Made by a program: the position numbers and the translations under genes. Below, piece after piece: positions 20,866 through 38,908 of a stretch of DNA of 46,445 nt (positions are counted from its first letter, which is position 1; every line of letters starts with the position of its first letter). Source of the stretch: Patescibacteria group bacterium (GTDB lineage Bacteria > Patescibacteriota > Minisyncoccia > Phycocordibacterales > Phycocordibacteraceae); NCBI GenBank assembly GCA_018969385.1, contig JAGWYL010000005.1, positions 1 to 46,445 of the forward strand. Reading direction: 5' to 3'. The notes below the pieces were generated by a model. It was not told the origin of the DNA, ran no database searches, and worked only from the letters and a program-made list of their open reading frames with translations.

Positions 20866-20939
20866 CGCTGGGATAGCTCAGGTAGTTAGAGCATGGGACT
20901 CATAAACCCAAGGTCGGAGGTGCAAGTCCTCCTCCCAGC
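20866..20939 (+). tRNA. tRNA-Met(CAU)
   Basis: The acceptor stem GCTGGGA/TCCCAGC, D-arm GCTC/GAGC, anticodon loop CTCATAA and T-stem GGAGG/CCTCC all form, with one A-A mismatch at the top of the anticodon stem. G1-C72 pairing argues against the initiator. A CAU anticodon could also be tRNA-Ile2 read with lysidine. CCA is not encoded. Confidence 0.88.
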
Positions 20940-20952
20940 ACACGATTTTCTA

Positions 20953-20999
20953 CGAGGACGGCGCGCTCCATAAAACATGGAGCGCGCCGTCCTCATTGT
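20953..20999 (+). terminator. Intrinsic terminator after tRNA-Met
   Basis: A perfect 18-bp stem starting GAGGACGGCGCG closes on AAAAC and is followed by ATTGTCTTTTTT. It isolates the tRNA from the endonuclease gene. Confidence 0.88.
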
Positions 21000-21038
21000 C
21001 TTTTTTGGGTAGAGTAATGTCCTGTTACACTGTACATA

Positions 21039-21728
21039 GTGCCGATAGCTCGAACGCTCAATCAGGATTTCTTCAAGAAGTGGACGCCGGAGATGGCGTA
21101 CGTCCTTGGCTATTTTGCTGCGGACGGTTCGATGATTCGCCACCAAAATAGAGGTTGCTTCATTGAGTTTACTTCAACGGACAAATCCTTGCTCGCCACT
21201 TTGCGGCACGTAGCGGGCGCGGGACAACGCATAGCGACTCGGAAACGTCGGAGTCGTAACTGGCAAGAGCAATATCGCATCCAAATTGGATCGAAAGAAT
21301 GGTTCACCGACCTGACCAAACTCGGCTTCGCTCCCGCCAAAAGCACAATACTTACATTTCCCTCCGCACCCAATGCGTACTTAGCGCATTTCGTACGGGG
21401 CTATTTCGATGGTGATGGCTGCGTGTACTTCAGGAAGCTGCAATACGCAGACCGCACTCGCAAGAGATGGGTGCTTATGTCGCTGTTTACGAGCGGTTCG
21501 CGAGACTTCCTGGAATCATTATGGATAGTACTTAAGACGAATGGCGTTAGTGGCGGCACGATTCAACCGAAAACAAGGGGATTTGAACTGAAATTCAGCC
21601 ACCGGGACAGCCTTGCACTCTACCGCTTCATGTATGATACTGCCTCTGCTACAGAGCCGTATCTCCCACGGAAGCGCACGCTTTTCCGGAAAGCGATACG
21701 GACCCTGTATCCGGAACTGCGGGGGTAG
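21039..21728 (+). CDS. LAGLIDADG homing endonuclease, free-standing
   Basis: The 229-residue protein carries two LAGLIDADG motifs, MAYVLGYFAADGSM at about 19-32 and LAHFVRGYFDGDGCVYF at about 112-128. Each acidic residue provides a catalytic metal ligand, and the fold is that of a single-chain homing endonuclease. The start is GTG at 21039, with TACACT seven bases before it. The base composition is visibly poorer in GC than the neighbours, consistent with transfer. The last three codons and the stop TAG lie inside tRNA-Asp, a ten-base overlap, so the element abuts the tRNA exactly. Confidence 0.87.
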   Translation: MPIARTLNQDFFKKWTPEMAYVLGYFAADGSMIRHQNRGCFIEFTSTDKSLLATLRHVAGAGQRIATRKRRSRNWQEQYRIQIGSKEWFTDLTKLGFAPAKSTILTFPSAPNAYLAHFVRGYFDGDGCVYFRKLQYADRTRKRWVLMSLFTSGSRDFLESLWIVLKTNGVSGGTIQPKTRGFELKFSHRDSLALYRFMYDTASATEPYLPRKRTLFRKAIRTLYPELRG

Positions 21729-21793
21729 CTCAATTTGGTTAGAGCGTCGGCTTGTCACGCCGAAGGTTGCGGGTTCAAGTCCCGTCCCTCGCG
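21719..21793 (+). tRNA. tRNA-Asp(GUC)
   Basis: The acceptor stem GCGGGGG/CCCTCGC (one G-T pair), D-arm GCTC/GAGC, anticodon stem TCGGC/GCCGA with loop TTGTCAC, and T-loop TTCAAGT are clear. The discriminator is G. CCA is not encoded. Its 5' ten bases double as the end of the homing endonuclease gene. Confidence 0.92.
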
Positions 21794-21798
21794 CAGCA

Positions 21799-21891: not shown

Positions 21892-22344
21892 TTAGTGATG
21901 CTGGTGATAGCGATGCGGGTTACGCGCAATGAAGTAGCGATTTACCGGAACGGTGATGATGAAGGCCGCGATGAGTGAAGCGAACAACTTATACCAGTAG
22001 ATCGGGTTGCCCAGATATGCGCCCATCGCTCCTGGGATGAGAAGTAAGAATGCGCTGTCAACGGTCTCCATGGAGATGATCGACACCGTGTCCGTCGCGA
22101 AAGCCGCTTTCGCGGCGCTAGCCCAAGACATACCCTTGCGTCGCATCGACGAGGAGGTGAGCAGGTACCCGAACAGGAACGCGAGCGGTATCGAGAAGGC
22201 TACCTTCGCCACGACCGCCCATCCGAGCAGCGTAGTTACGGACATGCCGAGTACCTCGCCTATCGAGCAACCGAGGAGGCAGTGGAGCGTGTGGCGAATG
22301 GCCGCGCGGGTATGGTCGTCGAGGCGGGAAAATAGGTCATTCAT
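21892..22344 (-). CDS. DUF4396 membrane protein
   Basis: The 150-residue product shows the DUF4396 signature AIRHTLHCLLGCSIGEVLGM at about 14-33, with the CLLGC cysteine pair at the membrane edge. Two helix pairs follow, and the C-terminal helix ends in a His-rich HRYHQHH tail. Function is not established, but the family often appears with metal-resistance genes. Its start overlaps the end of the upstream His-rich gene by eight bases, so it is the last gene of the repressor-led operon 23508-21892. The ATG at 22344 fits the family start better than the frame opening at 22407. Confidence 0.8.
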   Translation of the reverse strand: MNDLFSRLDDHTRAAIRHTLHCLLGCSIGEVLGMSVTTLLGWAVVAKVAFSIPLAFLFGYLLTSSSMRRKGMSWASAAKAAFATDTVSIISMETVDSAFLLLIPGAMGAYLGNPIYWYKLFASLIAAFIITVPVNRYFIARNPHRYHQHH

Positions 22345-22825
22345 AGCGAAGGACGATAGTGTCGCCGTCGCGCATGACGTACGAGCCGTATGCCGTGGAT
22401 GTCGCACTATTTATGGTCATGATCATGTTCGAACCGAACGAGTCCATGGGGTGACCCCACTCATCGAAGACACGATGCAGTTCTAAGTCGCTCTCGTGTA
22501 CGACGCCCGGGAACTCCATGTGGATGCGACCCGTGTCGTCATGCGTGTGAATCGGCATCTCGGACGCGCCGAGTCCGATTCCAGCGGGAACGGGAATCGT
22601 GGTCGTGCCGACTTCGATGGTGAGCATCGCGTGCCAATGGAGGCCGTGCGTGGTCACGAGAGCCGGGTTTCCGGAAGGTGCGAAGGCAGCCCATCCCAAG
22701 AGTCCGGCTATGAGAAGCGCGGTGACGGTCCAAAAGCGTCGCAGGTACATACCCGCAGAGCCGTGCCCGCCGTGCTCGTGTCCCGCTTTCCCAAGCGTAT
22801 GGTGGTCGTGCCCGGGGTGATTCAT
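22337..22825 (-). CDS. Membrane-anchored histidine-rich protein
   Basis: The 162-residue protein begins with a His-rich cytosolic end (MNHPGHDHHTLGKAGHEHGG), then one membrane helix (about 32-50), then an external domain. That domain has a HWHAMLTIEV strand, PVPAGIGLG, HTHDDTGRIHMEFPG (about 91-105) and a C-terminal YVMRDGDTIVLRYE. The HTHD and HWHA clusters would suit a copper- or other metal-binding site; that is inference from composition and from the adjacent CsoR/RcnR-type repressor. I know the external domain only as an uncharacterised one found in archaea and Patescibacteria. Confidence 0.7.
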   Translation of the reverse strand: MNHPGHDHHTLGKAGHEHGGHGSAGMYLRRFWTVTALLIAGLLGWAAFAPSGNPALVTTHGLHWHAMLTIEVGTTTIPVPAGIGLGASEMPIHTHDDTGRIHMEFPGVVHESDLELHRVFDEWGHPMDSFGSNMIMTINSATSTAYGSYVMRDGDTIVLRYE

Positions 22826-22835
22826 CGTGAAGAGG

Positions 22836-23225
22836 TTACGCCGCAAGGCTGGCGATGACGCGCTGCAGCTTTTCTTCGGCTTCGGCGGCAACGGACGCGA
22901 GCGCCGTATCGTCGAGCATGCTCATGGCGGCGGTCGGCCGTATGGCTTCAATGACGACGCGGTCGCCTTCCTCATAGACGATGACGTTGCAGGGCAGGAA
23001 GAGGCCGATGTCTTTCCGCGCCGAGAGCGCGCGGTGAGCAAGTCCCGGATTGCATGCGCCGAGGATGACGTACGGCGCATAGTCCGCGCCCATCTTCTCT
23101 TTCATGGCGGCTTGCACGTCTATTTCGGCGAGCACGCCGAACCCTTCTCTGGCGAGCGCCGCCTTCGTCGCGGCGAGCGCTTCGGGGAAACTCTTGGCGA
23201 GTCGTACCGTGTATGAGATTTCCAT
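22836..23225 (-). CDS. DUF302 family protein
   Basis: The 129-residue protein is a full DUF302 domain: SFPEALAATKAALAREGFGVLAEIDV at about 12-37, the central YVILGACNPGLAHRALSARKDIGLFLPCNVIVYE at about 52-85 and a charged C-terminal helix. Its two cysteines, in GACNP and LPCNV, are positions conserved in the family. DUF302 proteins are common beside metal-efflux and sulphur genes, but their activity is unknown. It lies 13 bases after the repressor gene and ten bases before the His-rich gene, as part of one operon. Confidence 0.87.
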   Translation of the reverse strand: MEISYTVRLAKSFPEALAATKAALAREGFGVLAEIDVQAAMKEKMGADYAPYVILGACNPGLAHRALSARKDIGLFLPCNVIVYEEGDRVVIEAIRPTAAMSMLDDTALASVAAEAEEKLQRVIASLAA

Positions 23226-23238
23226 GATGTTGTGTCGG

Positions 23239-23508
23239 TTATTTCTTCTTAGAGACCTTGTATACCGCCAGGATTTCGCTGATGGCTTTCTTCTGCGCTC
23301 CGCTCCTCATCTGCTCGACGACGTGCGTCGCGAGATGGTTTTCGAGAAGCGCGTCCTCGACCGCCGAGAGCGCCTGCCGTATCGCGGACGCCTGCGTGAT
23401 GACGTCGATGCAATACGCGCCGTTCTCGACCATCTTCTCGAGTCCGCGCACCTGTCCCTCGACGGTTTTCAACCTGCGCACCACTTTCCGCTTGACGTCA
23501 GGTTTCAT
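23239..23508 (-). CDS. CsoR/RcnR-family metal-sensing repressor
   Basis: The 89-residue all-helical protein has the family pattern RRLKTVEGQVRGLEKMVENGAYC and a second helix with NHLATHV. The ligand positions that define the family are Cys33, His58 and His62. CsoR (copper) has Cys-His-Cys at these places, while RcnR (nickel/cobalt) has Cys-His-His plus an N-terminal His. This protein has Cys-His-His but Pro at position 3, so its metal is uncertain. TATTAT lies six bases before the ATG and a G/C-tract operator abuts it at 23518-23535, giving clear autoregulation. Confidence 0.9.
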   Translation of the reverse strand: MKPDVKRKVVRRLKTVEGQVRGLEKMVENGAYCIDVITQASAIRQALSAVEDALLENHLATHVVEQMRSGAQKKAISEILAVYKVSKKK

Positions 23509-23517
23509 GGGTCCATA

Positions 23518-23535
23518 ATACCCCCAGGGGGTCTT
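23518..23535. promoter_or_regulatory. CsoR/RcnR-type operator
   Basis: ATACCCCCAGGGGGTCTT is an inverted G/C-tract of the kind bound by CsoR and RcnR tetramers. It directly adjoins the -10 of the repressor gene and lies 35 bases before the divergent Met-rich protein gene, so one site can control both sides. Confidence 0.78.
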
Positions 23536-23570
23536 AGGTCAAGAACGCGTATCCGCATAACTTCCTTCGC

Positions 23571-24170
23571 ATGAAGACATTCGCACTCGGGACACTCTTT
23601 TCAGTACTCGCGCTCGTCGGCTTGGGCGGGGTGGCGCACGCGCAGATGATGTACGGCAACGGCTCCGGATACGGTCCAGGCATGATGGGTGCCTATTACG
23701 GCGGGGAGGCGGCAAGTACGACCGCGAGCACGACGGACAGCGGTGACGCCGCCGGCGCCGCGCTCTTGCAGAAGCTCTCATCAGGGCAGACGACGTGCGC
23801 GTCGCTTACCGAGAGCGACTTCGCCGCGCTCGGCGACTATTTCATGGGTTCGATGATGGGTTCCTATCACGAGCAGGCGGACCAGTACATGACGCAGTCG
23901 CTCGGAGCGCAGGGCGACGAGGCGATGCACGTAGCGATGGGTGAGCGGCTTTCGGGATGCAATCCGTCCGCGCCGTATCCGAACGGCGCGTTCGGTTCCT
24001 ATCCGCCCGCGCGCGGCGGATGGGGCATGATGAGCGGCTGGTATCCCGTCATGGGATACGGCTATAGCCCCTTCGGCTGGCTCGGAAACGCGCTTCTCGT
24101 CATCTTCGCTATCATCGGCGTCATCGCGCTTGCGCGATGGGCTCTGCATCTGCTGGTTCACGGACGCTAA
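23571..24170 (+). CDS. Met-rich secreted/membrane protein divergent from the metal repressor
   Basis: The 199-residue protein has a signal peptide (MKTFALGTLFSVLALVGLG, cut near AHA-QM), then a Met/Gly/Tyr-rich segment (MMYGNGSGYGPGMMGAYYGG). A Cys-containing helical middle follows (TTCASLTESDFAALGDYFMGSMMG, and GERLSGC). A second Met/Gly/Pro-rich stretch precedes one C-terminal membrane helix (NALLVIFAIIGVIALARWAL). Clustered methionines are typical of extracytosolic copper(I) binding. TAACTT lies seven bases before the ATG. The shared operator suggests metal-induced expression with the divergent operon. Confidence 0.7.
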   Translation: MKTFALGTLFSVLALVGLGGVAHAQMMYGNGSGYGPGMMGAYYGGEAASTTASTTDSGDAAGAALLQKLSSGQTTCASLTESDFAALGDYFMGSMMGSYHEQADQYMTQSLGAQGDEAMHVAMGERLSGCNPSAPYPNGAFGSYPPARGGWGMMSGWYPVMGYGYSPFGWLGNALLVIFAIIGVIALARWALHLLVHGR

Positions 24171-37541: not shown

Positions 37542-38597
37542 TTATCCGAGCTTTATGACCTCCTCCCAAGGCCGACCCGCAACGCCGAAGTGGCCGTATG
37601 CGGCCGTCTGCCGGAAGATGGGGCGCGTGAGGCCGAGTCGTTCGATGATAGCCTTCGGCTTGAAATCGAAATGCTTGGCGACCACGTTGGAGAGGTTCTT
37701 TCCGCTCTCGTCGAACGCTTCCACCATGACCGGTTCCGCGCGCCCTATAGCGTAGGCGACGGACACGAGCACCTTCGTGCCGAAGCCGTTCGCCACGAGG
37801 TTCTTCGCGACGAAGCGGCACATGTACGCCGCCGATCGGTCCACTTTCGTCGCGTCCTTCCCGGAGAACGCGCCGCCGCCATGCGGCATGAGGCCGCCGT
37901 ACGTATCCACCATTATCTTCCTGCCGGTAAGTCCGGCGTCCGCTTCGAATCCGCCCTGCACGAATCGTCCGGTCGGATTCACGAGGAGCTCGATGCCGGA
38001 TATGTCGCCGAGCACCGCGGGAAAGAGATGCTTCACGAGTCCCGCGCGCACATCCTCCAGGGTCGCATCCTCCGCGTGCTGGGTGGAGGTGAGCGCCGTA
38101 ATCACGCTGCCGTTCTTTATCGTCACCTGCGTCTTCCCGTCCGGACGCAGGAAGGGAAGCGTGCCGTCGCGGCGAAGCGCTTCGAGCTTCCGTGCGAGCG
38201 CATGCGCGAGCACCACGCCTTGCGGCATATACTCCGGCGTCTCGTTCGTCGCGTAGCCGTACATGATGCCCTGGTCTCCCGCGCCGCCGGTGTCGACACC
38301 CATGGCGATGTCGTTCGATTGCGCAGCGACCTTCACCAGGACATCAAGCGGCTCCGTGTAGCCGATATCGGCATACACTGCCCGCGCGATGGCTTCATAG
38401 TCCACCTTTGCGTTGGTCTTCACTTCGCCGCCGATCATGAGCGTGCCGTGGCTGCCGAACGTCTCCACCGCCACGCGGCTTTTCGGGTCTTCCGTAAGGC
38501 AAGCGTCGAGTATGGCGTCGGAAATCTGGTCGCAGACCTTGTCCGGATGGCCGGCAGTCACGCTTTCGGTGGTATAGGTTGAGAGAAGATGGAACAT
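37542..38597 (-). CDS. metK: S-adenosylmethionine synthetase
   Basis: The 351-residue enzyme makes S-adenosylmethionine from methionine and ATP. Motifs are SVTAGHPDKVCDQISDAILD (about 12-31), QSNDIAMGV and GAGDQGIMYGYATNETPEYMP (about 105-125), the lysine loop DTYGGLMPHGGGAFSGKDATKVDRSAAY (about 231-258) and RAEPVMVEAF. It is shorter than the usual 380-400 residues, mainly in loops. A run of CTGTCA/GCTGT-like repeats precedes the start. The SET-domain methyltransferase in the window would use its product. Confidence 0.95.
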   Translation of the reverse strand: MFHLLSTYTTESVTAGHPDKVCDQISDAILDACLTEDPKSRVAVETFGSHGTLMIGGEVKTNAKVDYEAIARAVYADIGYTEPLDVLVKVAAQSNDIAMGVDTGGAGDQGIMYGYATNETPEYMPQGVVLAHALARKLEALRRDGTLPFLRPDGKTQVTIKNGSVITALTSTQHAEDATLEDVRAGLVKHLFPAVLGDISGIELLVNPTGRFVQGGFEADAGLTGRKIMVDTYGGLMPHGGGAFSGKDATKVDRSAAYMCRFVAKNLVANGFGTKVLVSVAYAIGRAEPVMVEAFDESGKNLSNVVAKHFDFKPKAIIERLGLTRPIFRQTAAYGHFGVAGRPWEEVIKLG

Positions 38598-38908
38598 AAG
38601 AATAGCTTACAGGTGACAGCAAACAGCTGACAGGGATACGAGATAATGCAAATGAATACGCTCCTTAGGGAGCGTATTCATAAGAATATCTGTCCCCGAA
38701 GGGCTGGAGGGGGCACCGTTTCCTTTCGGAATGGTTGCCGGCGGGTCATAAAGCCAGTTCTCTCGCCGCGCTCTGGATAGGTATTCAGTTGTGCGGATAC
38801 GATACCATGCCCCGGGTCCCGTTGGGAAACGGGACCCGGGAACATTGCTTTTTCATGATAGATGTTATAATATGCACTCGTGCAATAGAAAACCCATGGG
38901 AGGGTTAC
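38598..38908. other. Intergenic region between metK and the 38909 orphan
   Basis: It holds the repeat-rich metK upstream sequence. A 12-bp hairpin TGAATACGCTCC/GGAGCGTATTCA lies at 38653-38680. A perfect 13-bp hairpin CCCGGGTCCCGTT with GGGA loop lies at 38811-38840. The promoter of the orphan is TATAAT at about 38868-38873 with TTGCTT upstream. No gene is supported in the first 200 bases. Confidence 0.65.

Follow-up and report, generated by a model that had tools for sequence, protein, structure and literature searches.

A putative copper-sensing CsoR divergon in a Patescibacteria genome encodes a predicted chimeric membrane protein where relatives encode a P1B-3 pump

A five-gene cluster in the genome of a Patescibacteria group bacterium is best read, with a probability of about 0.7, as a copper-sensing CsoR divergon that derives from an ancestral pump cluster and has been remodelled by loss of the pump toward copper binding at the membrane. 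The 46,445-nt stretch that we analyzed (hereafter the window) is one of 32 contigs that make up an assembly of 757 kb with a completeness of 92.6%. What is new here is that the pump has been lost and that a chimeric protein is encoded in its place. Four genes are encoded on the minus strand, csoR followed by those for a DUF302 protein, a His-rich membrane protein, and a DUF4396 protein, and a gene for a Met-rich exported protein lies on the opposite strand. There are 13 nt between csoR and the DUF302 gene and 10 nt between the latter and the gene for the His-rich protein, which in turn overlaps the DUF4396 gene by 8 nt; this spacing indicates that the minus-strand genes are coupled. The initial annotation had linked the same three genes to the repressor, in agreement with this spacing, and the coordinates and residues that it gave were correct for all parts.

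The repressor (89 aa; 23239-23508, minus strand) belongs to the CsoR/RcnR family, matching PF02583 with an E-value of 1.2e-25, above the gathering score. Reading of its residues confirmed the previously noted ligand set Cys33-His58-His62 (C-H-H), as well as an N-terminus, MKPD, that has no His at position 3. We aligned the protein to PDB entries 4m1p, 4adz, 2hh7, and 3aai. In a gap-free alignment, Cys33, His58, and His62 match Cys36, His61, and Cys65 (C-H-C) of Mycobacterium tuberculosis CsoR (2hh7), and Tyr32 and Glu78 occupy the positions of its second-shell residues Tyr35 and Glu81. The same ligand columns are Cys-His-His in 3aai, which we take to be Thermus thermophilus TTHA1719. TTHA1719 has been described as a bona fide CsoR, the repressor of copZ-csoR-copA, with a G/C-rich pseudopalindromic site (PMC10318464). 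A comparison set of 96 CsoR proteins from related genomes contains 62 with a C-H-C set, 33 with C-H-H, and one with C-S-C; the closest relative, 92% identical, is the CsoR of locus L188, which is apparently a record of the MAG locus L037.

These comparisons do not support the suggestion that the ligand set fits neither classical copper nor nickel/cobalt sensing, as C-H-H is the set of the T. thermophilus copper sensor and of 33 of the 96 relatives, and on the same grounds we rejected a new metal specificity arising from C-H-H. Assignment as an RcnR nickel/cobalt sensor was likewise rejected. The protein lacks the N-terminal His of the RcnR set (His3-Cys35-His60-His64), its operator is of type 2 rather than the type-1 form TACT-G6-N-AGTA, and the RcnR model scores it at 39.2 bits against a cut-off of 138. 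The protein has the PF02583 fold family, C-H-C/C-H-H ligand columns without His3, and a type-2 operator in its own promoter, as expected of a CsoR. Judged by these features it belongs to a known copper-binding type of sensor, and neither the sensor nor the operator is new in kind.

The operator core, ACCCCCAGGGGGT (23520-23532), is perfectly palindromic, and there is no second exact copy of it anywhere in the 757-kb assembly. It is part of a 21-bp type-2 operator, TAATACCCCCAGGGGGTCTTA (23516-23536; TAC-N9-GTM form), that is 90% palindromic and conserved in relatives. Type-2 CsoR operators have two short G/C tracts inside TAC-N9-GTA (PMC3902906), and the window operator fits this form with one departure, GTC for GTA. 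Operators with at least 11 of the 12 half-site bases were present upstream of 84 of the 95 related csoR genes scored, compared with 1 of 475 shuffled upstream regions, and their distance from csoR is near-fixed. In the window, the operator lies inside the -35/-10 spacers of two overlapping, head-to-head promoter-like sites, where 0.2 such sites would be expected in shuffles. It fills the spacer of the csoR promoter, TTGACC-16-TATTAT (23515-23542, minus strand), and is overlapped by the divergent promoter of the Met-rich gene, TTGACG-16-CATAAT (23492-23519, plus strand). The perfect G/C-tract operator described beside the csoR -10 element is thus real, and the overlapping promoters together with the conservation in 84 of 95 relatives support a metal-responsive regulon in which one operator is common to two divergent units. 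The csoR mRNA is probably leaderless, since the -10 element lies only 6 nt before the ATG. Spacing is similar (6-7 nt) across this promoter and those of seven related loci, L188, L189, L190, L191, L192, L193, and L204.

The initial annotation had also stated that no efflux ATPase is present, which is true within the cluster: tblastn with a CPH ATPase gave no match in the window. Whole-genome searches of the 92.6%-complete assembly found three P-type ATPases only, none of them of the CPC or CPH type, and no HMA domain was found in the genome. The three are, by sequence reading, an H+-type, a Mg-type, and a TPC-motif P1B ATPase. The last (L008, 5252-7030, contig C9 of the same genome) is without an N-terminal HMA domain and is the only heavy-metal-type ATPase left in this genome. 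The cluster therefore lacks the CPC or CPH ATPase that defines membership among CsoR-regulated copper efflux operons, although the ~7% of the genome that was not assembled could include one. The T. thermophilus cop operon resembles the cluster in its CsoR fold family, C-H-H ligands, G/C-tract pseudopalindromic operator, and autoregulation as a copper operon, but its genes include those for an ATPase and a copper chaperone, whereas the window has neither a pump nor an HMA chaperone.

Related loci do carry the pump. In L192, from genome G295 of the same genus, the Met-rich gene stands divergent from csoR, DUF302, and a gene for a full CPH-type (P1B-3, CopB-like) ATPase; L204 has the order csoR, DUF302, CPH ATPase; and in L188 the CPH ATPase gene lies behind the Met-rich gene, across the same operator from csoR. 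A CPH motif and a His-rich N-terminus define the P1B-3 class (PMC5552934). These three loci and L190 and L191 share with the window the repressor, the operator, the promoter spacing, and Met-rich and/or DUF302 and HisTM genes, but differ in having a full-length CPH ATPase and a HisTM gene that is separate or missing. Because a genome of the same genus keeps the same order with a full CPH pump, the absence of the pump from the window appears to be derived, with the cluster descending from a pump-bearing ancestor.

A CPC or CPH ATPase lies within 3 kb and on the same strand at 79 of the 96 related csoR genes, including 24 of the 33 that encode C-H-H sensors (CPH 19, CPC 5). The C-H-H sensors have 19 CPH and 5 CPC neighbors, compared with 5 CPH and 50 CPC for the C-H-C sensors (Fisher p=1e-9). 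On the tree, this association is mostly clade structure (two lineages), with only two supported independent pairs, and we set aside co-evolution of the C-H-H sensor and the CPH pump because the pattern is mostly one of shared ancestry. A minority of csoR loci, L122, L201, L232, and L189, are also without a nearby copper ATPase; in L232, csoR is followed by an HMA-plus-membrane protein that is SafE/DsbD-like by eye.

The position of the missing pump is occupied by the gene for the His-rich single-helix membrane protein (22337-22825, minus strand), which directly follows DUF302, as copB does in L192 and L204. The protein has no Pfam or NCBIfam match. It reads as a chimera, fused in frame at the former site of the pump, because residues 1-39 match only the pump N-terminus and residues 46-162 only HisTM proteins. 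The first 39 codons (22709-22825, minus strand) correspond to the part of a CPH-type, CopB-like P1B ATPase that comprises the His-rich tail and the beginning of membrane helix 1, and the remainder (22337-22708, minus strand) to the rest of the helix and an HxH/HTH/HxE domain. In phmmer searches, residues 1-45 returned the protein itself and otherwise nothing but the N-termini of CopB-like ATPases (17 to 31 bits, E-values of 7e-8 to 2e-3), and residues 46-162 returned only separate HisTM-domain ORFs, with E-values down to 5e-55. At the DNA level, CGTCACCGCGCTTCTCAT in the window matches CGTCACGGCGCTTCTCAT in L192 copB over about 18 bp with one mismatch, and the sequences diverge directly after. 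This places the junction at about 22709/22710, in frame and inside the membrane helix. Residues H63, H65, H93, H95, H102, and E104 are invariant among 27 HisTM-domain sequences. Compared with a P1B-3 ATPase (CopB), the fusion has the N-terminus, but the CPH motif and ATPase domains are absent and a HisTM domain is found instead, so it does not belong to that class. A PDB profile search found no solved structure matching the HisTM domain, and an AlphaFold model of the fusion, built from a 3-row alignment, has a mean pLDDT of 48.6 and was of too low a quality to be used.

The fusion gene was found in one genome only when about 390 related genomes were searched. Genome G303 contains a locus of each parental kind, csoR-HisTM (L189) and csoR-DUF302-copB (L204), which makes it plausible that the chimera arose when two such copper loci recombined. 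The same observations would suit an assembly or binning artefact, in which the organism has an ordinary csoR-DUF302-copB locus as well as an independent HisTM gene and the two were wrongly joined where they share a short similarity, and the fragmented, 92.6%-complete assembly adds to that concern. We nevertheless consider an artefact unlikely. The junction keeps the reading frame and makes sense topologically, the match to L192 copB (roughly 18 bp, one mismatch) is shorter than usual assembler k-mers, the DUF4396 gene follows with an 8-nt overlap, and a search of the assembly for other fragments of copB found none.

Loss of the pump, and the absence from the Met-rich protein of the SHOCT tail seen in some relatives, could also point to a decaying relic, the remaining genes of which no longer protect the cell and drift. 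Against such decay, the promoters, the operator, and all ORFs are intact, the chimera retains the His and Glu ligands that are invariant in the domain, and an extra gene has joined the operon. The dN/dS of csoR relative to L188 is 0.06, and the other cluster genes gave 0.10-0.25 where estimable, with dS near or at saturation, and saturated in most comparisons; the low values indicate that the cluster looks maintained, and a relic seems to us rather improbable. The reading favored in the initial annotation, a system that never had a pump and binds or shuttles metal at the surface under a sensor of new specificity, draws on the lack of a pump in the cluster, on the Met-rich and His-rich exported domains, and on Staphylococcus aureus CopL, a partner of a P1B-3 pump under CsoR control that has been suggested to bind copper outside the cell (PMC10233261). 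Its account of the origin is contradicted by the relatives, which have a pump at the same place, and by the His-rich tail, which is a pump remnant; the ligand set, moreover, is a known copper one. We regard this version as very improbable. Its emphasis on binding over pumping is retained in part, as nothing of the pump remains but the His-rich N-terminus preserved in the fusion, even though the cluster descends from one that bore a pump.

In our preferred reading, of a pump cluster remodelled toward membrane binding, the ancestor would have had the Met-rich gene on one side of the operator and csoR, DUF302, and a CopB-type pump on the other. By analogy with the family, apo-CsoR on the type-2 operator would silence both divergent promoters, and Cu(I) binding at Cys33-His58-His62 would release it. 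Of the products, the DUF302 protein would be cytosolic, the Met-rich protein exported and anchored in the membrane, and the DUF4396 protein a membrane protein; the pump position would supply the chimera, in which the His-rich cytosolic tail and first-helix start of the pump (residues 1-39) would be joined to an extracytoplasmic HxH/HTH domain. The DUF4396 gene would have been added downstream of the chimera. The present role of the cluster is thus likely to be copper binding or buffering at the membrane instead of ATP-driven export. More tentatively, pump loss may amount to re-tooling rather than decay: capture of the pump tail and first helix by the extracytoplasmic domain would have given a single-pass protein able to bind copper on both membrane faces and forming, with the Met-rich and DUF4396 proteins, a CsoR-controlled, ATP-independent buffering or relay system. 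The S. aureus copXL and copB-mco clusters (P1B-3 CPH pumps, CopB/CopX) are similar in their CsoR control, in the His-rich cytosolic N-terminus of the pump, and in an exported partner protein proposed to bind copper; in the window, by contrast, all that is left of the pump is the His-rich N-terminus, joined to a different domain, and the partner proteins come from other families. The cluster would exemplify a copper-export operon that, in a reduced genome, has given up its pump and kept its sensor, operator, and accessory proteins, and the chimera offers a concrete protein with which to ask whether binding alone manages copper. Our literature search found no paper joining the Candidate Phyla Radiation with copper and P-type ATPases.

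Gene-neighborhood evidence links three families about which little is understood, DUF302, DUF4396, and the HxH/HTH single-helix domain, to copper. The DUF302 protein (129 aa; 22836-23225, minus strand; PF03625, E=9e-25) is a recurrent csoR neighbor in relatives, as in the csoR-DUF302-ATPase order of L192 and L204. DUF302 also occurs in CsoR-family sulfur/persulfide clusters, which we counted against the copper reading. The DUF4396 membrane protein (150 aa; 21892-22344, minus strand; PF14342, E=1e-34) has an invariant THC..GC..G motif and a His-rich C-terminus in the family alignment. On a Kineococcus plasmid, DUF4396 is accompanied by a metal regulator, an HMA protein, and a heavy-metal P-type ATPase; in Streptomyces liliifuscus it lies close to CopC, and in S. 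clavifer it adjoins a four-helix copper-binding protein. These neighbors favor a copper role without proving it, and no such metal or copper neighbor was seen in two other plasmid neighborhoods of DUF4396 that we inspected. One paper found in our literature search names DUF4396, which there flanks a metal-resistance cluster alongside DUF302.

The Met-rich protein (199 aa; 23571-24170, plus strand) has a signal peptide, a conserved Cys/His core, and a C-terminal membrane helix in the alignment. It had been described as secreted and encoded across the operator; the divergent arrangement, also found in L188, L190, and L192, and the signal peptide agree with this, but the protein is probably membrane-anchored rather than secreted because it has a C-terminal transmembrane segment besides the signal peptide. 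Some relatives (e.g. that in L122) end in a C-terminal SHOCT domain, which the window protein lacks. PDB profile searches matched DUF302 to two uncharacterised structures and returned nothing for the Met-rich or DUF4396 families.

Copper clusters of this kind repeatedly adjoin tRNA-Met and/or tRNA-Asp (window, 20867-21794; L188, 4402-4473; L189, 4030-4101; L203, 5136-5405). The window flanking genes that we tested are absent from the tRNA-adjacent copper loci of those relatives. The recurrence of tRNA adjacency while these flanking genes are absent suggests that the copper cluster is an island moving between tRNA-adjacent sites. A free-standing LAGLIDADG-like ORF (21039-21728, plus strand) lies between the tRNA-Met and tRNA-Asp genes and has a GC content of 0.52 versus 0.61; a 42% identical relative in L232 adjoins tRNA-Met near another csoR. 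Elsewhere in the window, a SAM riboswitch (38683-38783, minus strand) lies 86 nt upstream of a MetK-like ORF (37542-38597).
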